NCBI RefSeq assembly: GCF_001406815.1
Contig: NZ_CVRR01000013.1
Location: 1 to 49,341 of the forward strand
Source: Roseburia faecis
GTDB taxonomy: Bacteria > Bacillota > Clostridia > Lachnospirales > Lachnospiraceae
Length of the DNA: 49,341 nt
Reading direction: 5' to 3'
Every line of letters begins with the position of its first letter. Position 1 is the first letter of the stretch. Below, one piece after another: positions 3,054 to 13,282 of the stretch. Made by a program: the position numbers and the translations under genes. The notes below the pieces were generated by a model. It was not told where the DNA came from. It saw nothing but the letters and a program-made list of their open reading frames with translations, and did no database searches.

Positions 3054-3338
3054 TTAGAAGTAAATATAATCATTCTTGTCCACATATTTACCACAATGTG
3101 GACAATATCGATTACAACCTGTTTTAAGAAAACTACCACAATGAGGACATCTTCTGAACACAGCAATAAAAATTATCGTTCCAACAAGTTCCACTAACCC
3201 GGCTCCTAATATTATCAATCCTATCATAGTTCCTGTGCAAATACCTATGATCACAAGAAGTAAACCTATGACCGTAAATATAACGGATAATCTTGTCACA
3301 ATTTTAAGTGGAATACGGTGCATTTCAATCATCTCCAT
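3054..3338 (-). CDS. Small membrane protein with C-terminal zinc ribbon (second copy)
   Basis: 94 residues from the first ATG; a start at the third ATG (3323) is better spaced from a GGAG and equally possible. Two long hydrophobic segments (about 14-34 and 38-60) precede a zinc ribbon with CPHC and CPHC knuckles (RRCPHCGSF, RYCPHCGKY). The layout matches the protein at 1766-2017, with the ribbon held on the cytoplasmic side. It stands alone, oriented away from agrB. Function unknown. The upstream stretch 3339-3522 has no gene. Confidence 0.7.
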   Translation of the reverse strand: MEMIEMHRIPLKIVTRLSVIFTVIGLLLVIIGICTGTMIGLIILGAGLVELVGTIIFIAVFRRCPHCGSFLKTGCNRYCPHCGKYVDKNDYIYF

Positions 3339-3522
3339 TCTTTCAATTCTGTGGTGTATATCCTTTATAGAACCATTTGTTTAAGCAGAAAAATTCAAAA
3401 TTAAATCCGTGATATCAGAAATTGTATCTGATAAAGTGCCATTAATAGTGTATGACTTGGTATCCTGATAGATAGTTAATTGACGACATAATATTTTTTA
3501 AAAAATATATTTAATTCCATAC

Positions 3523-3646
3523 TAGTATATTTGTATAGAAAAAGCAATAGAATTGGTGCAATTGGTGTGAACTGCAAAATATTGGCTTTAAACGACAGAA
3601 CAAAAAGAGAGGGAAGAACAGCATTTTTATGTATATATGATATAAT
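3523..3646 (+). promoter_or_regulatory. agrB promoter with shared upstream activator element
   Basis: The -10 box TATAAT is at 3641-3646 and there is no good -35 box, as expected of an activated promoter. A 75-bp block at 3523-3597 repeats at 7995-8059. Its core AATATTGGCTTTAAACGACA ends 43 bp before the -10, the same distance as at the kinase promoter. Read on the minus strand it shows two GTT-centred half-sites 21 bp apart, the spacing typical of LytTR regulator sites. That the LytTR protein at 9461-10162 binds here is inference. Confidence 0.6.
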
Positions 3647-3666
3647 GAAAGCAGTATATTAGAAAA

Positions 3667-4164
3667 ATGGTGAAAATAAATATGAGTATTCCCTTTATGG
3701 TTATATTTGTGTGTGCATGGTATTTTAAAATGTTGATCCCAATGTTGATTTGGTGTGTGATGTTTTTAATGCTTCGGAATTATATTGGAGGATATCATGC
3801 AAAAACGCATTTCCGATGTATTTTGTATAGCAGTGTTTATGGAGTTATAGCAATGTATGGAATAATCTGGTTGGCGGTTGTTCACCTGACAGTAAAATTG
3901 ATTGTATGTGGAGGTCTGTTATTGATTAATATTTTTACAGGACCTGTCATTCATGATGAAAACTTGAAAGGTTATAAGAGAAACTATTGTAAAATCGGTG
4001 TTGGTGTATTAGCAGGTGGAGTAGTTTGCGCAGTATTTTTAAACCTTGGCAATACAAAATTAGGGAATGCTGTTTTTATGGGGATAATTTCTGCCGAGTT
4101 TTTATATGGAATAGATTTGTTAATAAATGGGAAAAAGATAAAGCTGTATAATGAGATGAATTAG
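3667..4164 (+). CDS. agrB: AgrB-like peptide-processing membrane protease
   Basis: AgrB proteins are membrane cysteine proteases that trim and cyclise the AgrD precursor into a peptide signal. The catalytic region is clear: RNYIGGYHAKTHFRC, with His and Cys seven residues apart as in the family, followed by several hydrophobic segments. At 165 residues it is shorter than usual (about 190-200), lacking roughly 30 residues before the catalytic motif; the promoter -10 lies only about 20 bp upstream, so this short form seems to be the natural product. Start is ATG 3667 with a weak SD, or ATG 3682. No AgrD-like gene was recognised beside it. It is co-transcribed with the next small gene and sits convergent to the ABC transporter operon. 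Confidence 0.8.
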   Translation: MVKINMSIPFMVIFVCAWYFKMLIPMLIWCVMFLMLRNYIGGYHAKTHFRCILYSSVYGVIAMYGIIWLAVVHLTVKLIVCGGLLLINIFTGPVIHDENLKGYKRNYCKIGVGVLAGGVVCAVFLNLGNTKLGNAVFMGIISAEFLYGIDLLINGKKIKLYNEMN

Positions 4165-4171
4165 GAGAAAA

Positions 4172-4393
4172 ATGAGAATGAAAAAATATCTTGGAACAAT
4201 TTTTTTAATATTTGGTTTTTTGGAAATTATAGTATTGAGTGCAATTTCAACTTTTGACAGGGTAATGTATGAAGATACAAATCATTTTATTGGATTTATA
4301 AATAATTATGGGTTGTGGCCATTTCTAATAGGTTCTGTAATAGTACTATTTTGCGGAGTGGTTTTGATAGTGTTAGAATATAGTAAAAGATAG
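4172..4393 (+). CDS. Small two-helix membrane protein after agrB
   Basis: 73 residues behind AGGAG, 8 bp after agrB. Two hydrophobic helices (about 5-25 and 48-68) flank a polar loop rich in Asp, Asn and aromatic residues (about residues 28-46). In AgrB loci this slot usually carries AgrD, but the protein is long, its only Cys is inside the second helix, and it has no acidic AgrD tail, so I do not call it AgrD. It could be a membrane helper, an immunity protein, or an unusual signal precursor. Confidence 0.6.
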   Translation: MRMKKYLGTIFLIFGFLEIIVLSAISTFDRVMYEDTNHFIGFINNYGLWPFLIGSVIVLFCGVVLIVLEYSKR

Positions 4394-4414
4394 TGAAATA
4401 AAGGATATTTTATC

Positions 4415-4472
4415 AAATGCCAGAAGTGTCAGTTAAGATAAAGAGTTTATTTTGATTGACATTCTGGCATTT
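4415..4472. terminator. Bidirectional hairpin between convergent operons
   Basis: Arms AAATGCCAGAA plus TGTCA (4415-4431) and their complement (4456-4472), with one bulged base, lie between the agrB unit and the convergent transporter operon. AT-rich flanks on both sides fit use in both directions. Confidence 0.65.
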
Positions 4473-4497
4473 AAAATTAAGGTATTTAAGTATGTAA

Positions 4498-5031
4498 TTA
4501 CAAAGTTTTTACGGTATATCCGTAATTTTTTAATTGTTCATAGACCTGACTATTTTGGGGAGCATAGATAATTCCGGTAAAATTTCCAAAAGAATCTTTT
4601 TCAATTGTGCAATTTCCGTTTTCTATCGAAATTGATGTTAAAGAAGGATTATCATAAAAAGCCATATGACCAATTTTATTGACAGAAGCTGGAATGTATA
4701 CTGTTTTGATAGCCTCGCACCATGAAAAACATCCTTCTTCAATTTCGCAGACTTTATAACCAGCAAGTTCATTGGGAATACGCAGATCTACAGGTGTCGA
4801 ATTGCTTGGTAGATAGGAAACAAGATCTGCATAATTTTGCGCACGAATTCTGTAATTATAATTTTCAGCGTTTTGAAGCGGATCGTTGGTAGTCATTTCA
4901 TTTTTTGAAACAGAAAAAGACTGCGGAAAATAAAATTTTAACAATTGATTGCAACCACAAGAGAGTAAGATCATGCCAATAATAAGAATAGAAAATATCC
5001 AAAAAACGATGCGATGATTAATTTTTATCAT
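4498..5031 (-). CDS. Lipoprotein with BspA-type leucine-rich repeats
   Basis: 177 residues. A hydrophobic N-terminus (about 9-25) ends in LLSCGC, with Cys25 or Cys27 as lipidation site. The C-terminal half has BspA-like LRR_5 repeats (VYIPASVNKIGHMAF, then LTSISIENG) as in surface proteins of gut Firmicutes. Last gene of the transporter operon, overlapping the ATPase gene by 14 bp, so its product is likely tied to the exporter: a surface immunity or sensor lipoprotein would fit, but no direct sign of the substrate exists. Confidence 0.7.
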   Translation of the reverse strand: MIKINHRIVFWIFSILIIGMILLSCGCNQLLKFYFPQSFSVSKNEMTTNDPLQNAENYNYRIRAQNYADLVSYLPSNSTPVDLRIPNELAGYKVCEIEEGCFSWCEAIKTVYIPASVNKIGHMAFYDNPSLTSISIENGNCTIEKDSFGNFTGIIYAPQNSQVYEQLKNYGYTVKTL

Positions 5032-5644
5032 AAAGGTTTCCTTCTTTCATTTCAAGAATCTGGTCACAGAGACTGGTAATATTCTGATGATCATGTGTGG
5101 CGATTATAATACAGGACTTCTTCTTTTTTAAATCTTCCAGAATGGCTTTCAGACACCCAATGGTATCTGTATCCAGCGCATTGGTTGGTTCGTCTAAAAG
5201 AAGTAATTGTGGGGTTTCAAAAATTGCCTGCGCAATATTAAGCTTTTGTTTCATCCCCAGAGAGAATTTTTTTACTTTTTCATTGCTTTCAAGGTTTATT
5301 TTCCGGAGTGCGTCCTGAATGTCGGAAGTGGTGGCATAATGGTTGATTTTATTTAATTCTTCCAGATTTTCGAATGCAGTTAACTGGGGTTGTAATTCCA
5401 TGTTTTCTATAATTAGTCCCATATGGTCAGGAAAAGAGATTTCTTTATGTAACGTTTTCCCATTAATTATGATTGAGCCGGAAGTCGGGAAAACCAGACC
5501 GGATATGATACGGAGTAACATTGTTTTTCCGGAACCGTTGATGCCATAAATACCGTAAATTTTTCCGGCCTCAAAAGTGTAAGAAATATCATTTAGTACG
5601 GTTTTCTTTTTAAATTTTTTTGAGATGTGTTCTAATTGAATCAT
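5018..5644 (-). CDS. ABC transporter ATP-binding protein
   Basis: 208 residues from ATG 5644, which overlaps the stop of the upstream permease gene as ATGA; the longer open frame upstream is not used. All ATPase motifs are intact: Walker A GINGSGKT, signature SLGMKQK, Walker B LLLLDEPT and the switch His in ATHD. Proteins of this short type pair with ABC-2 permeases for bacteriocin export or immunity. Its partners are the three membrane genes upstream in the same operon. Confidence 0.9.
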   Translation of the reverse strand: MIQLEHISKKFKKKTVLNDISYTFEAGKIYGIYGINGSGKTMLLRIISGLVFPTSGSIIINGKTLHKEISFPDHMGLIIENMELQPQLTAFENLEELNKINHYATTSDIQDALRKINLESNEKVKKFSLGMKQKLNIAQAIFETPQLLLLDEPTNALDTDTIGCLKAILEDLKKKKSCIIIATHDHQNITSLCDQILEMKEGNLYDKN

Positions 5645-6285
5645 ACAAAGTCCTTTCTTTTTATTTGTAAATAAAGTAAAAAATACAGCATCATGATAAA
5701 AATGATTTTGATTGCAGGTGTGCAATACCATGGAAATATAAGGTAAGCAATTTTGCGGAATGGATGGGCGAAAACCATACATTCGGATATCAGGCAATAA
5801 ATCGAGAGAAATAAAATGGTGGTCGTTTCAGATACACATAAGCGGAGTAAAAGAACCCACTGAAACAACAGATACAGGTTTAAAAAAGTACCAAATAAAT
5901 GCATTATGATGGTCACGCTATTTTGCATAAAACATTCAAAATATAATAATACATTCCCACAAAAATATATAGAGCAAGTAATAAAAACTAATATAATACC
6001 GGAAAGATGTAATTTATTGATTAAAATATTCCGTGATTTTAAGCGAGGAATAATAAAACTCCCGTAATCATACAAAAAATCGGTATCATAAACAGAAAAA
6101 TATAAAATTGCACTTATAGGAAGAAGCCATTGGGCACAAACATCTAAAAAGGATGTGGGGTGTGATGGCAGTTGGTAAGCAAACATAAATGCAGTGTCTG
6201 GTAAAATACTGATATATTTAAAATGTAATAATTGTAAAATAAAAAACGGCAAAAGAAATCGAATACAATTTTTAAGTGCTTTCAT
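5641..6285 (-). CDS. ABC-2 type permease subunit (third membrane protein)
   Basis: 214 residues, about six hydrophobic segments and no soluble domain; rich in Phe, Leu, Tyr. It overlaps the preceding permease by 4 bp and the ATPase by 4 bp, indicating tight co-expression. No conserved motif recognised, so the permease role rests on context. Confidence 0.65.
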   Translation of the reverse strand: MKALKNCIRFLLPFFILQLLHFKYISILPDTAFMFAYQLPSHPTSFLDVCAQWLLPISAILYFSVYDTDFLYDYGSFIIPRLKSRNILINKLHLSGIILVFITCSIYFCGNVLLYFECFMQNSVTIIMHLFGTFLNLYLLFQWVLLLRLCVSETTTILFLSIYCLISECMVFAHPFRKIAYLIFPWYCTPAIKIIFIMMLYFLLYLQIKRKDFV

Positions 6286-6992
6286 TCATAAAACTCCTTC
6301 TTCTTATTTGTTTGCAAATATACCAGATACAAAAGAAGGGCAAGAAATGTAAGCCGAAGCAAGTCATAAAAGCATACAATAACAGACTGGTGGTGCGCCA
6401 TATAGTGAATGGCTACCAGGCAATTCCGAAGAGGAAGGAAATAACTGTTGCTTATTTTGTAAAGAAAAATCTGCGTGCAGCATAAAAGACATACTCCAAG
6501 TGAAGCGTACAGGGTAGGAATGTAGTTGTTTAATATTTGCTGAATGCAAAAGATTCCCATACAATACAAAAAATCTGCAATCCACTGAAAGAAAAAAATA
6601 TAAAAAATGGGAAAAAAATTCAAATAACGAAATCCGATCTGTGTAAACAGATAGATTCCTCCCGAAAGTATGTGAAGGGCAGCAAATAGCAAAGTAAAAC
6701 AAAGCACTGTCTGGTATTGGCAGCGGAAATACTGGTATCGTGTCTGGTATCTGCAGACAAAGCAGCTAGTTTGCGGAGCCATCATCTGGGGAAGATAAAC
6801 CAGATATACAAAAGGAATAATAATTGCATAAGCATGCAAAAAGTAAAAATCACCTGAGAAAAAGGAGACCAGATAAGAAGAAAATGTAATCAGGTTTTTA
6901 TGATACATATGACCTGATTTCGCATATACAAGAGCCACTGTGACATAAAAAAACAAAAAAGTAAAAACTGTTGTGATACATTTCTTATTCAT
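6282..6992 (-). CDS. ABC-2 type permease subunit (second membrane protein)
   Basis: 236 residues, strongly hydrophobic with about six membrane segments, and a loop with FVCRYQTRYQYFRCQYQ near residues 78-94 that resembles the coupling segment seen in the neighbouring permeases (compare ILISRIGKRKMLYRLLIK in the first one). Overlaps both neighbours by a few bases. Function assigned from operon position. Confidence 0.65.
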   Translation of the reverse strand: MNKKCITTVFTFLFFYVTVALVYAKSGHMYHKNLITFSSYLVSFFSGDFYFLHAYAIIIPFVYLVYLPQMMAPQTSCFVCRYQTRYQYFRCQYQTVLCFTLLFAALHILSGGIYLFTQIGFRYLNFFPIFYIFFFQWIADFLYCMGIFCIQQILNNYIPTLYASLGVCLLCCTQIFLYKISNSYFLPLRNCLVAIHYMAHHQSVIVCFYDLLRLTFLALLLYLVYLQTNKKKEFYE

Positions 6993-7746
6993 AGATACTC
7001 CTTCTGGTCAGAATACAGATGTATAGGATTGCTGGCACGAAAAATAATAAAAGTCCTGAAGCTGTTTCTGTAAGGGTAGAATTAATTTGAAACGGCTGGA
7101 AAATTAAAAGCAGGGAGCCGGGTTTTAAAATTTCAATCAGCCAGAAAAATATACTTACAAAATATACCGTTTTTCGGTTGCGGAAATAAAAGGATGTTGC
7201 ACAACAAAACATACCCATAATGCCATAGATAATACATGTGATCAGAATATGTACAAAATTGTTTAACAAAGGATGGTTAGTCCAAAACATTGTAAAAACG
7301 TTTAAAGCAGAAATTTCAGATGGATTGTATTTCCCACCACGAAACATCAAGTGAACACAGAGTAGATTCAGGGAAAGAGAAAGAAAAACCAATACGGATA
7401 GCAATATAAAATTTTTTATAAGAAGACGGTAAAGCATTTTTCTCTTTCCAATCCGGCTGATCAGGATATTATCATAACCCCGTTCCTGATCCATCAAACA
7501 ATCATTGGAGGAAATTACCAGACAGTACAATGGAATCAGCCATAAGTAAAGACCTTGAAAGATATGTCCGATACCAACGCTGTTTCCGCATAAAAAGAAA
7601 GCACAATCTGGCTGATAGGCATAGTTTCCCTGAATAATCTGATATATGTACCACCAGGATTCCAGAAATGGAAGAATAAAAATCCATAGCAAAACCATAA
7701 CGGTGGATAAAGTGCTGAGATTTCGTTTGATTAAAAATTGTAACAT
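6985..7746 (-). CDS. ABC-2 type permease subunit (first gene of the operon)
   Basis: 253 residues with about six membrane segments. The first extracellular loop is long and aromatic; residues about 85-120 (QERGYDNILISRIGKRKM) resemble the cytosolic coupling motif of ABC-2 permeases such as those of lantibiotic immunity systems. First gene of a five-gene operon that reads 7746 to 4498 with overlaps at every junction. SD AAAGGAG lies before ATG 7746. The operon runs divergently from the histidine kinase gene. Confidence 0.7.
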   Translation of the reverse strand: MLQFLIKRNLSTLSTVMVLLWIFILPFLESWWYIYQIIQGNYAYQPDCAFFLCGNSVGIGHIFQGLYLWLIPLYCLVISSNDCLMDQERGYDNILISRIGKRKMLYRLLIKNFILLSVLVFLSLSLNLLCVHLMFRGGKYNPSEISALNVFTMFWTNHPLLNNFVHILITCIIYGIMGMFCCATSFYFRNRKTVYFVSIFFWLIEILKPGSLLLIFQPFQINSTLTETASGLLLFFVPAILYICILTRRSIYE

Positions 7747-7994
7747 AGGTGCTCCTTTTCCTTTCCCCGAAAGATATGATATTCTTTATATTTCAATCCT
7801 TTCGTAAGGCTGATTGGTTTTTTAGGTTCATACATAAGGCTAAGACAGTTTGTAGTTGCTTTTTTGGGGCAACTTTACAAATTACATCTTTCACAATTCC
7901 TATAGTATTTTTTTCTCTTTTTATCATCGTTTTTCGTTCGTGTAAATTGTTAATTGGAAATATAATATATTCCAGAATATATTAAATTTTACAA

Positions 7995-8108
7995 TAGCAT
8001 ATTTATATAAAAAAACAATAGAATTGGCGCGAAATACAAAATATTGGCTTTAAACGACATTGAAATTAAGGATTCAATTTCCTTTTTATTCTGCATTTAT
8101 GGTACAAT
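7995..8108 (+). promoter_or_regulatory. Kinase operon promoter with the shared upstream element
   Basis: The block 7995-8059 matches 3523-3597 apart from a 10-bp gap and a few changes; the core at 8040-8059 is identical. The -10 TACAAT (8103-8108) sits 43 bp downstream, as at agrB. No consensus -35 is present. In the rest of the 370-bp gap between the divergent operons (7747-7994) I see no gene and no clear second copy of the element facing the transporter operon. Confidence 0.6.
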
Positions 8109-8132
8109 TGTAGTCAGGTGGAGGTGCTGACT

Positions 8133-9464
8133 TTGTGGAATATATGGGAATTTCTTATTATTTTATTTGAATCATTTTTGTTTTTCTTATTTATGAATAG
8201 AAAGCTGGATCCCAAAAAGAGAATTTTTAAATGGCAATGGTGTGCATGGTTACTGTTTTCTATCATTTTATTTTTTTTAAATCAGATGAAAGTATCAATA
8301 TTTTATACTGTGTTTTACGGTATAATAGTGCATTTTTTAATTACAATGATTTTTACAAATTCTTCTCTTTTTTCACAGTTTTTTTATGTTATATTGTATT
8401 CGATCTATGCGTTGCTTGCAGATGTAGTGTCTGCAATGCTTCCAGTGGTTCTTTTTCACGAAAATATCAATCGCGTTTTATCGGGAGGCTGGGTTCGGGC
8501 GGTTTTTACATTGGTTTACCTGATCCTGCTTGGGTTGTTGATCGGATTGACGATAATGATTGGAAAACAAAATATCTGCCTGCAGACAAAGGAAAAGCTG
8601 ATTTTTATAGGAATTGCGTTGTTGTGTGTGGCAATCGAGCAAATAGACATGATTGCTGTAGTAAGAGCATTACAGCAATCCCGGGATAACGATTTTTTCA
8701 TGCTTGTGACAATTTTTGTCTTTGTGTTATTCCTGTTTATGATTATGCTGTTATTTATTTATAATCTGGGTGTGGAAAGAGAAAAAAATAATAAACTGCT
8801 GGAAGAGAATCTGCTGTCACATATGGAATCACAGCAGTACGAGCAGATTCTTGCTTCGGTCAAAGAGCTGCGTATAATGAAGCATGATGTAAAAAACCAT
8901 CTGGATGTGTTGCAGACGCTTTTGGAAGGGAACCATACCGGACAGGCTGTTGACTATATGAGGCAGATCACAGCAGACCTGAACAAGGTGCATTATACGC
9001 TTTCCAGTGGAAATACAACGGTTGACTGTATCGTCAGCAATAAGCAAAGCATGGCGGAAAATGTTGGGATTCTTACAGAAAATATCATATATTTACCCGA
9101 AGAGATTCCATTAAGTGATGTAGAGATTTGTTCCTTGCTGGGGAATCTCTACGATAATGCAATTGAGGGATGCATGCGGGCAGAAAGTAAGAGAATTTGG
9201 TTGTATATGAAGCCATTTCATAATATGCTGTCAATAAAAATTGTCAATACTTCGGATGGGGGTTACAGATCTGATTCTGAGAATGAATTATTGAGCACAA
9301 AAGCAGGGAAAGGCAATCAAAATGGAATGGAACATGGAATTGGATTGAAGCGAATACGGGAAATTGTAGAGAGACATTTCGGAATCATGGAAATATTGCC
9401 GGAAAAAGAAATGTTCTCCGTAAATATTTTGATTCCGTTGCATCAGGGAGAGCAGCAGACATGA
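8133..9464 (+). CDS. AgrC-like sensor histidine kinase (GHKL family)
   Basis: Membrane sensor that should detect a peptide and phosphorylate the regulator encoded next to it. I place the start at TTG 8133, eight bases after GGTGGAGG, since a GTG at 8118 would lie almost on the transcription start. Residues 1-210 hold about six or seven membrane helices; a coiled stretch follows; the H-box MKHDVKNHLD has the phospho-His near residue 250; the N-box LLGNLYDNAIEG and G-box GIGLKRI form the HATPase_c_5 domain. It overlaps the regulator by 4 bp. Confidence 0.85.
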   Translation: MWNIWEFLIILFESFLFFLFMNRKLDPKKRIFKWQWCAWLLFSIILFFLNQMKVSIFYTVFYGIIVHFLITMIFTNSSLFSQFFYVILYSIYALLADVVSAMLPVVLFHENINRVLSGGWVRAVFTLVYLILLGLLIGLTIMIGKQNICLQTKEKLIFIGIALLCVAIEQIDMIAVVRALQQSRDNDFFMLVTIFVFVLFLFMIMLLFIYNLGVEREKNNKLLEENLLSHMESQQYEQILASVKELRIMKHDVKNHLDVLQTLLEGNHTGQAVDYMRQITADLNKVHYTLSSGNTTVDCIVSNKQSMAENVGILTENIIYLPEEIPLSDVEICSLLGNLYDNAIEGCMRAESKRIWLYMKPFHNMLSIKIVNTSDGGYRSDSENELLSTKAGKGNQNGMEHGIGLKRIREIVERHFGIMEILPEKEMFSVNILIPLHQGEQQT

Positions 9465-10162
9465 ATTTGAAAATTGCAGTTTTGGAAGATAAAGAAAACG
9501 ATTACCGCATATTGGAGTCGGCTCTGAAAATTTGGAGTGAGGGTAGCGGAAACCGAATCGAATTATTCTGGTATCAGACCGGAAATGAAATGCTAAAGTC
9601 TTTTGAACAGGATGGTTTTGATATTTTGTTTTCAGATATTGAATTAGAAGAAAACGAAATAGGACTTACATTTTGTGGAAGATTGAGGGAACTGGGATAT
9701 TCTGGAGAGATTATTTTTCTTACAGCTTTTCGGGAGTATGTCTTTCGTGGTTATGATGTGAGGGCACTTCATTATCTGTTAAAACCAATCACACAGGAAA
9801 CCTTATCCGGATGCATGGACAAATATCTTACAATCCATGCAGGTGATTTTTATTACTTCCATAAAGAAAATGATATTGTTAAAATCCGATATTATGATAT
9901 GATTTTGATTCGGAAGGAAAAACATGATGCGGTAATTCAAATGAAAAATATGGCATATGCGGAGAGAGTTTCCCTTGGGGAGATGGAGAAACGATTGCCT
10001 CCGCAATTTGTTCGTTGTCATAAATCATATATTATAAATATCATGTATGTGGATTCTATAGTTGGAAGCCTGATTTACATGGCGGATGGAACGCAGATTG
10101 TGGCAGGACGAAAATATCTGGCAGATGTAAGAAAAGAACTGCTTGCGTTTGCACAGAAATAA
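9461..10162 (+). CDS. LytTR-family response regulator (AgrA-like)
   Basis: 233 residues. The receiver domain (1-120) has the acidic pocket LED near residue 9, phospho-acceptor Asp59 in LFSDIE, Thr in FLTAF and Lys in LLKPI. The LytTR DNA-binding domain (about 130-230) carries FVRCHKSYIIN and the GTQIVAGRKY strand pair. Overlaps the kinase stop by ATGA. Its most likely targets are the two promoters with the shared element (3523-3646, 7995-8108), by analogy to AgrA, which binds paired 9-bp repeats 21 bp apart. Confidence 0.9.
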   Translation: MNLKIAVLEDKENDYRILESALKIWSEGSGNRIELFWYQTGNEMLKSFEQDGFDILFSDIELEENEIGLTFCGRLRELGYSGEIIFLTAFREYVFRGYDVRALHYLLKPITQETLSGCMDKYLTIHAGDFYYFHKENDIVKIRYYDMILIRKEKHDAVIQMKNMAYAERVSLGEMEKRLPPQFVRCHKSYIINIMYVDSIVGSLIYMADGTQIVAGRKYLADVRKELLAFAQK

Positions 10163-10246
10163 AATTTAATAATATAATGTTTGGAGCCGGTAGTTATATT
10201 ACTGCAAGTACATAAGATGACAGAAGTGTTATTAATGTAATTTTAC

Positions 10247-10312: not shown

Positions 10313-13282
10313 ATGCAGGTTGAGCAGAAAAATATATGGGAAGATGTAACGCGGAATGCAAAACGTGATAACAGTAACAGGGCAATTGCGGCTTATCAGG
10401 CAAATATGCCGGATGCCGGAGCGGTTGCAGCTTTTGGCGGACAGGAAGCCTATGTGCAGCAGAAAACTGCGGTGTCCGAGGCTGGAAATATCGATATGGC
10501 AACGTATTCCAACCCGGCAAAGCAGGGGCAGGAAGAAAAGACAGTAGCGGAAAAAATTGCAGGGCAGGAGATTTCTTCGGGACAGGCGCGCAGCAACGAA
10601 ATCGCTGTAGTGGCAAATACCACTTCCACAGAAGATTTAAAGAAGATGGAAGAGGACGGATTTTCCATTTCCGATGCAGACAGCCATACCATTATTACCG
10701 TGACGGACAAGATTAAAGCAGCTCTGGCAAAAGCCGGAGTGGATGTGTCTTCCATGGGCGGAACACTCACAAAGGAACAGTTAGAGGAGATCACCGGAAG
10801 TCCGGTTGTGACGCAGCAGATCATGGACTCTCTTGCGGCAAACGACCTGCCGGCGACGGAGGAAAATGTGCAGGACAGTGCGGAGGCACTAGCACAGGCT
10901 GCCTCGATTCCGGAGATCACGAAACAGGCGATGAGTTATCTTCTGAAAAATGATATGGAGCCGACCATCCGCAATCTGTATTTGTCCAATTACAGCAGCA
11001 GCGCAGAAAATATTGTGGAGCCGGAGCAGAGCGGAATTGATTTTGAGTCCCTGATGCCGCAGATTCGTGAGATTATTGCAGAAGCAGGCCTTTCCGATGA
11101 CGAACATGCGGTGGACAACAGCAAGTGGCTGGTGGCAAACCAGATTCCCCTTACACCGGAAAATCTGCAGTATCTGACAGATCTGCAGGGATTATCGGAC
11201 GATCTGCAGACCGATCATATAGACTGGGACCAGATCGTGGATTCCATGGCGAAGGCAATTGCGGCAGGAAAACGTCCGGCAGATGCTTCCATGATTACTG
11301 CACGCAGACAGATGGAGGAAGCACGTCTGGTAATGACCAGTGAGGCATCCATGGCGATGGAAAAAGCAGGCGTAGAGATGGATCTGACACCGCTGGCGGA
11401 TCTGGTCGAGGATTTAAAATCCCAGGAGAGAGAATACTATAAAGACCTGCTTGCCGGTGCCGGAGTTGAGCCAAGTGAAAAAAATGTGGATCTTATGGCA
11501 GAAACCATGGATGTGTTTGCCGAACTGAAACAGCAGCCGGCATATGTAATCGGGCAGGTGGATGCGGATGATTCCGTTCAGGAGATTCATGATGCCGGAG
11601 CGCAGATGCAGCGCGCATTTGCACAGGCAAATGAAAGTTATGAAACACTGATGACTGCTCCGCGCAGTGACATGGGGGATTCCATAAAAAAAGCATTTTC
11701 CAATGTGGACGATATTTTACAGGATCTGCAGCTGGATACAAGTGAAACAAACCGCCGTGCAGTGCGGATACTGGCTTATAACAATACCGAAATTACACCG
11801 GAAAATATTATGGAAGTAAAAGCACTGGATGAGCAGATGCAGCGTGCGTTTTCTAATATGAAACCGGCAGTAACGCTGGAAATGATCCGCCGTGGGGAAA
11901 ATCCACTGGATATGACTATGGAGCAGCTGAATCAGGCGGCACAGGAGATTCAGCAGGAGAACGGAACACAGGAGCAGGAACGGTTTAGCAAATATCTGTG
12001 GAAACTGGAGCAGAATCATGAGATTTCTGAGGAAGAGCGCAGCAGTTATATTGGTATTTACCGTCTGATCGCACAGGTGGAAAAAGGAGATGGGGCAGCA
12101 CTTGGATTTCTGATGAATCAGGGATCGGACGTGACGATGCGAAACCTTTTGCGTGCTGTGCGTTCAGAAAAAAAGAGTGGTCTGGATTATCAGGTGGACG
12201 ATGATTTTGACGGAGTTGACAGCACAGCAGAAGGTCCGAAAATTGACGAGCAGATCTCGGCTGCGTTCCAGCAGAATTGTCTGCGCGATGTGATGGAACA
12301 TATTTCACCGGAAAAACTTTCCCGTCTGGGAGAAGAAAAGTGGCAGAATATGTCTCCGGAACAACTGGCAGAGGCACTCCGGCAGATGGATGAATCCGTT
12401 GGGGAACAGGAAGCGGAAAAAAGCTATCGGCAGGAACAGCTTGCGCAGTATCAGCAGCTTGCAGAAACACCGGAAGACGTATATACCTATCTGGAGCGGT
12501 ATGATATTCCAAACAGTATGGTAAATGTCATGGCAGCATCGGAAATGCTGCGCAAACCAAACCGGATGATGGAGAGGTTGTTTCAGCAAGATCATGTTTC
12601 CAAAGATTCCATGACAGAGATTGCAGAGATGAAAGAGCAGGTACTTGAACAGTTTTCAAAAGCCCTTGAGAATCCTTCGGATCTTGCAGATGCCATGGAG
12701 ACGCTTGCGGATGTGGCAGAGCATGTGATGGATACGATGATCGTAGAAGATCCGGATGTCCGCACGATTGATATCCGGGAAATGCGCCAGATGACCGCAC
12801 AGTTTCAGATTGGTGCGAAACAATCGCAGGAAGAATGTTATGTGATTCCGATGCAGACAGGAGATTCTGTCACCGGGGTTTCTTTAAAAATCGTAAGAGG
12901 AAAAAAGAAAAAGGGTCTTGTGGATATTTTTCTGGATGGAGAAAAGGCAGGAAAGATTACGGCATCTTTTCAGGTAAAATCAGACCGTATTTCTGGAACA
13001 ATTGTGACAAGCGAGGAAGAGACCGCAAAACAGATCGAAGAACACCTGCAGGAACTGCAGGATGCCATGCAGGAACCGGCAGATATCCATGTTGCATATA
13101 CACCGGATCTTTCTTTGTCGCAGTTTGAGATGTCCGGAATCCGGAGGGAAAGTGAAATGAAAGAGCAGGGAGAACTGGAGGAAGACCGTTCCAATCAGGT
13201 ACAGACAACGAGGTTGTATCATACAGCGGAAGTTTTTATTAATTCCATAAAATCCCTTTTGACAAAAACAAAAGATCTGTAG
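10313..13282 (+). CDS. Large DUF6240-like protein, possibly flagellum-associated
   Basis: 989 residues from ATG 10313, six bases after CGGAGG; an earlier ATG at 10295 lacks an SD. No signal peptide or membrane helix. It is built from helical repeats of about 60-70 residues with a recurring phrase such as LTPENLQYL, ITPENIMEVKAL, TEENVQDSAEAL, ending in NxLP/NxxI turns. The last 150 residues change to a beta-rich segment (SVTGVSLKIVRG, VDIFLDGEKAGKI, ASFQVKSDRISGTI) with the general form of a FliK-type hook-length control C-terminus. I recall this family near flagellar genes in Lachnospiraceae; the hook-control link is inference. Confidence 0.6.
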   Translation: MQVEQKNIWEDVTRNAKRDNSNRAIAAYQANMPDAGAVAAFGGQEAYVQQKTAVSEAGNIDMATYSNPAKQGQEEKTVAEKIAGQEISSGQARSNEIAVVANTTSTEDLKKMEEDGFSISDADSHTIITVTDKIKAALAKAGVDVSSMGGTLTKEQLEEITGSPVVTQQIMDSLAANDLPATEENVQDSAEALAQAASIPEITKQAMSYLLKNDMEPTIRNLYLSNYSSSAENIVEPEQSGIDFESLMPQIREIIAEAGLSDDEHAVDNSKWLVANQIPLTPENLQYLTDLQGLSDDLQTDHIDWDQIVDSMAKAIAAGKRPADASMITARRQMEEARLVMTSEASMAMEKAGVEMDLTPLADLVEDLKSQEREYYKDLLAGAGVEPSEKNVDLMAETMDVFAELKQQPAYVIGQVDADDSVQEIHDAGAQMQRAFAQANESYETLMTAPRSDMGDSIKKAFSNVDDILQDLQLDTSETNRRAVRILAYNNTEITPENIMEVKALDEQMQRAFSNMKPAVTLEMIRRGENPLDMTMEQLNQAAQEIQQENGTQEQERFSKYLWKLEQNHEISEEERSSYIGIYRLIAQVEKGDGAALGFLMNQGSDVTMRNLLRAVRSEKKSGLDYQVDDDFDGVDSTAEGPKIDEQISAAFQQNCLRDVMEHISPEKLSRLGEEKWQNMSPEQLAEALRQMDESVGEQEAEKSYRQEQLAQYQQLAETPEDVYTYLERYDIPNSMVNVMAASEMLRKPNRMMERLFQQDHVSKDSMTEIAEMKEQVLEQFSKALENPSDLADAMETLADVAEHVMDTMIVEDPDVRTIDIREMRQMTAQFQIGAKQSQEECYVIPMQTGDSVTGVSLKIVRGKKKKGLVDIFLDGEKAGKITASFQVKSDRISGTIVTSEEETAKQIEEHLQELQDAMQEPADIHVAYTPDLSLSQFEMSGIRRESEMKEQGELEEDRSNQVQTTRLYHTAEVFINSIKSLLTKTKDL

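Follow-up and report, generated by a model that had tools for sequence, protein, structure and literature searches.

The 49,341-nt stretch of DNA analysed here (the window; contig NZ_CVRR01000013.1 of Roseburia faecis) carries what, from its sequence, is an agr-like locus comprising agrB, agrD, a sensor kinase, a response regulator and an ATP-binding cassette (ABC) transporter, and a promoter block that occurs twice within this locus is the subject of our analysis. On the plus strand, agrB (3667 to 4164) encodes a 165-aa protein that matches Pfam PF04647 from profile position 30 at 65.4 bits (cut-off 23). Detached from it, an operon on the same strand encodes an AgrC-type GHKL sensor kinase (8118 to 9464; PF14501, HATPase_c_5, 59.3 bits, cut-off 22) and a response regulator with a receiver domain and a LytTR domain (9461 to 10162; PF00072, 47 bits, cut-off 30.2; PF04397, 62.3 bits, cut-off 22.6). 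The regulator is the presumed binder of the sites described below; it is not an AgrA equivalog (NCBIfam NF046049, 30.5 bits, cut-off 400), and its residues H155, H187, N193 and R217, which we take to resemble the DNA-contact residues of AgrA, are invariant in a six-sequence alignment. The presumed agrD start lies on the minus strand, in a 44-aa open reading frame (ORF) at 7793 to 7927. One copy of the block precedes agrB, which thus has its own site, and the other precedes the kinase-regulator operon.

The copies span about 3469 to 3597 (agrB side, plus strand) and about 7943 to 8059 (kinase side, plus strand), and they share a 23-bp core, CAAAATATTGGCTTTAAACGACA, which is identical at 3575-3597 and 8037-8059. 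An earlier note on this DNA had reported a block at 3523-3597 recurring at 7995-8059, with an identical core of 20 bp; the recurrence and the identity are borne out, but the core is longer than reported and the similarity extends further upstream. In particular, 69 of 88 alignment columns are identical left of position 3560 (3469-3559), as are all 22 columns that fall within the core, and the promoter alignment scores 127 compared to a maximum of 46 in 300 shuffles. Because the similarity runs beyond the core with so high a score, the shared block is a diverged duplication of a promoter region. The insert noticed earlier in the agrB copy is present, though as 9 bp rather than 10 bp in the alignment, and smaller gaps of 1 and 2 bp occur at other upstream positions. 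In both copies, exactly as the note had it, 43 bp separate the end of the core from the -10 hexamer (TATAAT at 3641-3646; TACAAT at 8103-8108), and calling the DNA in between unrelated was fair, as the two 43-bp spacers have 20 of 43 bases in common when ungapped and 29 of 47 when gapped.

With up to three mismatches, the core has two matches in the window compared to none in 100 shuffles. Across the whole genome (a draft of 100 contigs and 3,333,086 bases), 19 of its bases, again with up to three mismatches, are found at only these two places, both of them at promoters and none away from promoters. The presence of the block in two copies could be expected of a dispersed repeat or of a mobile element that plays no part in regulation, a reading that we rejected as extremely improbable: a genome-wide copy number of two, with both copies at promoters, speaks against it, as does the occurrence of the site at the same place in related loci. 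Further, the plasmid collection had no match to 3400-10200 (near mode), the phage collection had none to 3400-4400 (distant mode), the viral contigs had none to the exact 21 bases, and Rfam had no family at the block, with one sub-threshold match elsewhere, which also led us to reject an RNA element.

Each copy contains two 9-bp direct-repeat half-sites 21 bp apart, as the note had claimed, which is the arrangement of an AgrA-type operator. On the plus strand, they are TGAACTGCA at 3568-3576 and TAAACGACA at 3589-3597 in the agrB copy, and CGAAATACA at 8030-8038 and TAAACGACA at 8051-8059 in the kinase copy. The -10 boxes of agrB and of the kinase-regulator operon, both on the plus strand and both 43 bp past the site, have no consensus -35 element, and a consensus promoter search of the window found no promoter ending at 3646 or 8108; the lack of a consensus -35 in both plus-strand promoters therefore gives them an activator-dependent look. 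The position of an operator by itself is no proof of the sign of regulation, and the regulator might repress or merely tune these promoters; we consider this improbable, as the site lies well upstream of a -10 box whose missing -35 consensus instead points to activation.

At E ≤ 1e-30, four of the genus's 61 other genomes have relatives of the kinase, in addition to a paralogue on contig C5 of the same genome; so do at least 11 of 396 further genomes sampled from the family, where up to four candidates were scored per genome. Sixteen related loci were examined (L063, L065-L069 and L099-L108; G318 was left out), one of which, L100, is a near copy of L067, the C5 locus. Upstream of the kinase operon, nine loci outside the window have paired 9-mers near YRAANNRYA, 21 bp apart and picked by eye, with departures of one base in G016 and several in G292. 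A tenth pair, also read by eye, lies upstream of the agrB-kinase-regulator genes of G043, so that with L100 set aside 10 of 15 distinct loci have such a pair. Because the pairs were chosen by eye, a lag scan and a model check were made. Across 16 upstream regions (that of the window kinase and 15 others) and lags of 14 to 31, lag 21 was the highest, with a mean best 13-mer self-match of 9.56 compared to 7.69 to 8.75 for the other 17 lags. A search of genome contigs with the regulator found two distant loci.

The model check used descriptions of the site built without the window. A matrix from the nine loci, scored at 98,616 placements in the window, put the kinase site 2nd and the agrB site 5th; the three remaining placements that outrank the agrB site, with the best of all at 13047, fall elsewhere in the window. 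Model R2, with nine non-window rows (G043 included and G292 excluded), ranked the agrB site 1st (8.6 bits) and the kinase site 2nd (8.2 bits) of 12 matches in the window with filters off. The earlier placement of a LytTR operator at both promoters is thus supported by the pairs in related loci and by models that owe nothing to the window.

A second model, R1, has 11 rows from G000 (the genome of the window), G016, G043, G004, G014, G454, G384, G280 and G346, where its matches arise by construction. At E ≤ 0.1 and with stricter filters, it matched each of the five genomes of the genus that have the kinase at E ≤ 1e-30, the window's genome among them, all of which contributed rows, and 2 of 57 genus genomes without the kinase (G013 and G023); the G013 match directly precedes another LytTR regulator gene. 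Among 23 family genomes, 11 with the kinase and 12 without, R1 matched five of the former. Of the latter, G070 has five strong matches and no kinase at E ≤ 1e-30, and these five may form the regulon of a different LytTR protein. Overall, the 21-bp site as modelled is typical of the kinase group and not exclusive to it. In G346, three matches lie in a single upstream region (C12:10657-11057), which separates the kinase gene from a divergent gene for an exported protein.

The distance from the site to the -10 box appears to take two preferred values. Strong -10 hexamers lie 32-34 bp past half-site 2 in 7 of 12 promoters (C5, G014, G004, G454, G384, G280 and G043) and 42-44 bp past it in 6 of 12 (both window promoters, G016, G014, G454 and G384), which places one at either distance in 10 of 12, where the mean is 1.6 of 12 per 3-bp bin. 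The top-scoring hexamer lies at 42-44 bp in six promoters; it lies elsewhere in G292 (48 bp), G346 (26 bp) and G043 (46 bp). The mean -10 score profile of the 12 sites has no single peak distance (best offsets 46, 49 and 33), while the count of strong hexamers peaks at 33 and 43. Two site-to--10 distances one helical turn apart are therefore supported by these counts, with the choice of -10 ambiguous in G014, G454 and G384.

Similar regularities appear on the other side of the site, where 11 of 13 sites have a TTG at offset 11-12 and 6 of 12 have strong hexamers at 32-34 bp, compared to a mean of 1.2. A TTG at a fixed offset, together with these hexamers, is the reason for reading the element as a two-way promoter, and the sequences suggest that its other product is agrD. 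In the window, the candidate divergent agrD promoter is TTGTTT-16 bp-TATTGT (7991 to 8018, minus strand), whose weak -10 is outscored by a TAAAAT lying 5 bp further on. The divergent TTG of the agrB copy lies at offset 20, so that it is 9 bp more distant than its counterpart in the kinase copy, a difference equal to the 9-bp insert; a candidate divergent promoter there, TTGCTT-17 bp-TAGTAT (3519 to 3547, minus strand), is proposed from consensus resemblance only. The ORFs at 1766-2017 and 3054-3338 encode small membrane proteins with CxxC pairs that are 31% identical; the one at 3054-3338 faces the agrB operator copy on its divergent side.

Downstream of agrD, the minus strand carries a run of membrane-protein genes at 6985 to 7746 (next after agrD, with a weak relative in L067), 6282 to 6992 (no Pfam family) and 5641 to 6285 (Pfam DUF2705, just above the cut-off), followed by an ABC ATPase gene at 5018 to 5644 (best NCBIfam match a lantibiotic protection ATPase, below its cut-off). 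AgrD signatures occur on the divergent side in eight related loci (L066-L069, L099-L101 and L107); L065, the kinase locus of G016, has no convincing AgrD signature, only a single motif match without such context. In eight loci (L067, L068, L069, L099, L100, L101, L102 and L107), agrB follows the regulator in the same direction, and in L066 it precedes the kinase, so that agrB adjoins the kinase-regulator genes in 9 of 16 loci; in L063, it lies on the opposite strand, and the agrB queries had no match in L065, L103-L106 or L108.

Both signal genes of the window appear damaged. The agrB product has the Pfam domain without its N-terminal part, and it lacks 44 N-terminal residues of P0128 (205 aa; a cluster of 1123 member sequences): P0128 reads MVKI, 44 residues, NMSIP, and the window protein reads MVKI-NMSIP. 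Five of 32 agrB clusters likewise begin MVKINMSIPF (P0127, with 641 members, P0129, P0131, P0132 and P0145), and 13 of 32 have an internal junction at which the GGYHA...C stretch is missing (P0129, P0131-P0135, P0137, P0139-P0141, P0144, P0152 and P0156). These deletion forms may reflect either loss that recurs or effects of assembly. The chimeric look of P0149 and P0157 warns that assembly may have produced some of the entries, and different alleles may be pooled in the cluster sizes. In the genome of the window, nine agrB genes lie above the Pfam cut-off, the window's included, and several of the stretches examined around them also have AgrD signatures.

The AgrD signature, NCLSLMYEPKKP (7734 to 7874, minus strand), has its Cys codon beginning at 7847 and is in the -1 frame with respect to the ATG ORF at 7927-7793, whose own frame has no pheromone signature, and the window has no start codon in frame with the pheromone core. 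In the protein database, the five candidate relatives P0121-P0125 all have an in-frame start and signature. The -1 frame piece scores 16 bits against TIGR04223, below the cut-off of 19, and among two relatives P0123 lies above it (21.3 bits) and P0125 below (15.9 bits). An A AAA AAG heptamer, of the dnaX slippery type, lies roughly where the frame changes (7865-7859, minus strand). A programmed -1 frameshift at this heptamer was rejected as unsupported, since the RNA downstream folds no more strongly than its shuffles do (z 0.06), and a damaged agrD allele is the simpler explanation. The regulator looks whole, with its nearest clusters (P0001-P0003) also 233 aa long, as does the kinase, whose relatives match from residues 4-9 to residues 442-445. 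With the N-terminal loss in agrB and the agrD frame out of register, the strain is therefore probably signal-mute, able to sense but not to send.

Taken together, the block is likely a duplicated bidirectional promoter-operator of the locus's own LytTR regulator, driving the kinase-regulator operon and agrB and probably also the agrD-ABC genes. From the sequence, we infer binding by the regulator, activation, two-way action and loss of the signal, in the following scheme. The phosphorylated regulator (9461-10162) would bind the 9-bp direct-repeat half-sites 21 bp apart; at the kinase copy (8030-8059), it would activate the plus-strand kinase-regulator operon and probably also, on the minus strand, agrD and the ABC transporter genes; and at the agrB copy (3568-3597), it would activate the detached agrB. 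This would constitute the usual agr positive feedback, with a separate operator keeping agrB in the regulon, and with a damaged signal arm the loop here would sense without sending. The earlier note had proposed that the regulator activates both agrB and its own operon, a reading that the related loci support, with binding and activation as its predicted steps; it had missed agrD on the opposite side, the two-way look of the element, the length of the duplication and the damage to agrB and agrD.

Several observations weigh against this interpretation. By eye, five related loci (L063, L103, L106, L107 and L108) have no clear 9-mer pair, and R1 has no match in 6 of 11 family genomes with the kinase (G201, G265, G292, G318, G419 and G479). 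The R2 E-values of the agrB and kinase sites are weak (0.24 and 0.34 in 49 kb), and in a filtered whole-genome scan (E ≤ 10, with 150 of 353 candidates scored) the window sites were not among the R2 matches listed, which were C5:415936, C5:417498 and C37:39892. The top-scoring -10 lies at 33 bp (32-34 bin) in only 3 of 12 promoters. Compared by eye to the AgrA 9-mer consensus, the window half-sites match partially, at about 5-7 of 9 positions, where a G004 half-site matches in full. Moreover, half-site 1 has the same base at 6 of 9 positions between the copies while the 12-bp spacer is identical, and the conserved part is therefore not simply the half-sites. Lastly, simulations with a flank identity of 0.78 give a run of at least 23 matches in about 11% of cases; the identity of the core alone is therefore weak evidence of selection, and was rejected as proof of it.

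This last result, together with the homology of the flanks and the truncation of agrB, would suit a rival account in which the agrB copy is a passive relic of the duplication, unselected in front of a damaged gene, and the regulator acts at the kinase copy only. Such an account is unlikely, though it is the least unlikely of the rivals: the agrB copy retains both half-sites 21 bp from each other, with a perfect TATAAT 43 bp beyond them, it scores as well as the kinase copy in the window-free model, and longer agrB alleles such as P0128 exist in the protein database. The weak extra R2 site in the same genome (C37:39892-39923) has no agr-type gene in the surrounding 3 kb.

In Staphylococcus aureus, the LytTR protein AgrA acts at the agr P2/P3 promoters, which are divergent, on intervening direct repeats with a spacing of about 21 bp, with positive feedback. 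The window locus resembles this system in its LytTR regulator, its repeat spacing, its divergent promoters and the proposed feedback on signalling genes; it differs in that the divergent unit is agrD with an ABC transporter rather than an RNA effector, in that agrB is detached with its own operator copy, and in that the half-sites fit the AgrA consensus only partly. The VirR boxes of Clostridium perfringens are also LytTR direct repeats upstream of a -10 box, but their sequence is different and they are not known to belong to an agrB-agrD loop of this kind. Another close likeness is the C5 module (L067) with its near-identical counterpart L100, which has the kinase, the regulator, divergent exported proteins, agrD, ABC genes and the 21-bp site. 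In C5, a second site lies beside agrD, which two genes separate from the kinase, a parallel to the window agrB; unlike in the window, agrB follows the regulator and matches its Pfam profile over 2-182 of 185 positions, the agrD start and signature share one frame, and the best -10 lies at 33 bp. L067:2914-17434 and L100:2124-16644, the latter from another genus, are 99.98% identical over 14,521 bp, which reflects either recent horizontal transfer or contamination.

Since C5 has the same module with sites found by the same model, and the regulator, counting itself, has 14 matches in the genome, a different LytTR regulator of the cell, such as the C5 paralogue (34% identical), might bind the window sites alone or by cross-talk. 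We give this little credence: the C5 half-sites, TGAATGGTA and CAAACGGTA, differ from those of the window, and each of the two regulators adjoins its own site.

Agr loops controlled by LytTR regulators are of a known kind; what varies here is that agrB is detached and has a duplicated, seemingly two-way operator, along with the spacing and the state of mute listener. The analysis provides an operator model for a group of agr-like systems with a scattered occurrence in this bacterial family, suggests that the splitting of an operon can go together with duplication of its operator (agrB here, agrD in C5), and makes signal-mute but listening strains testable. A broader and tentative possibility, which we hold to be less likely true than false, is that the lineage keeps a two-way LytTR switch whose spacing follows a helical-phase rule, with each -10 about 33 bp from the site or one turn further away in either direction, that splitting of the agr operon copies this switch along, and that the population is polymorphic for signal production, with many strains losing agrB or agrD function by short deletions or frame slips and keeping the receptor, regulator and responsive promoters as signal-mute listeners. 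Further upstream in the window, two paralogous minus-strand ORFs (72-392 and 2403-2861; 73-76% protein identity) flank a 310-aa ORF at 826-1758.

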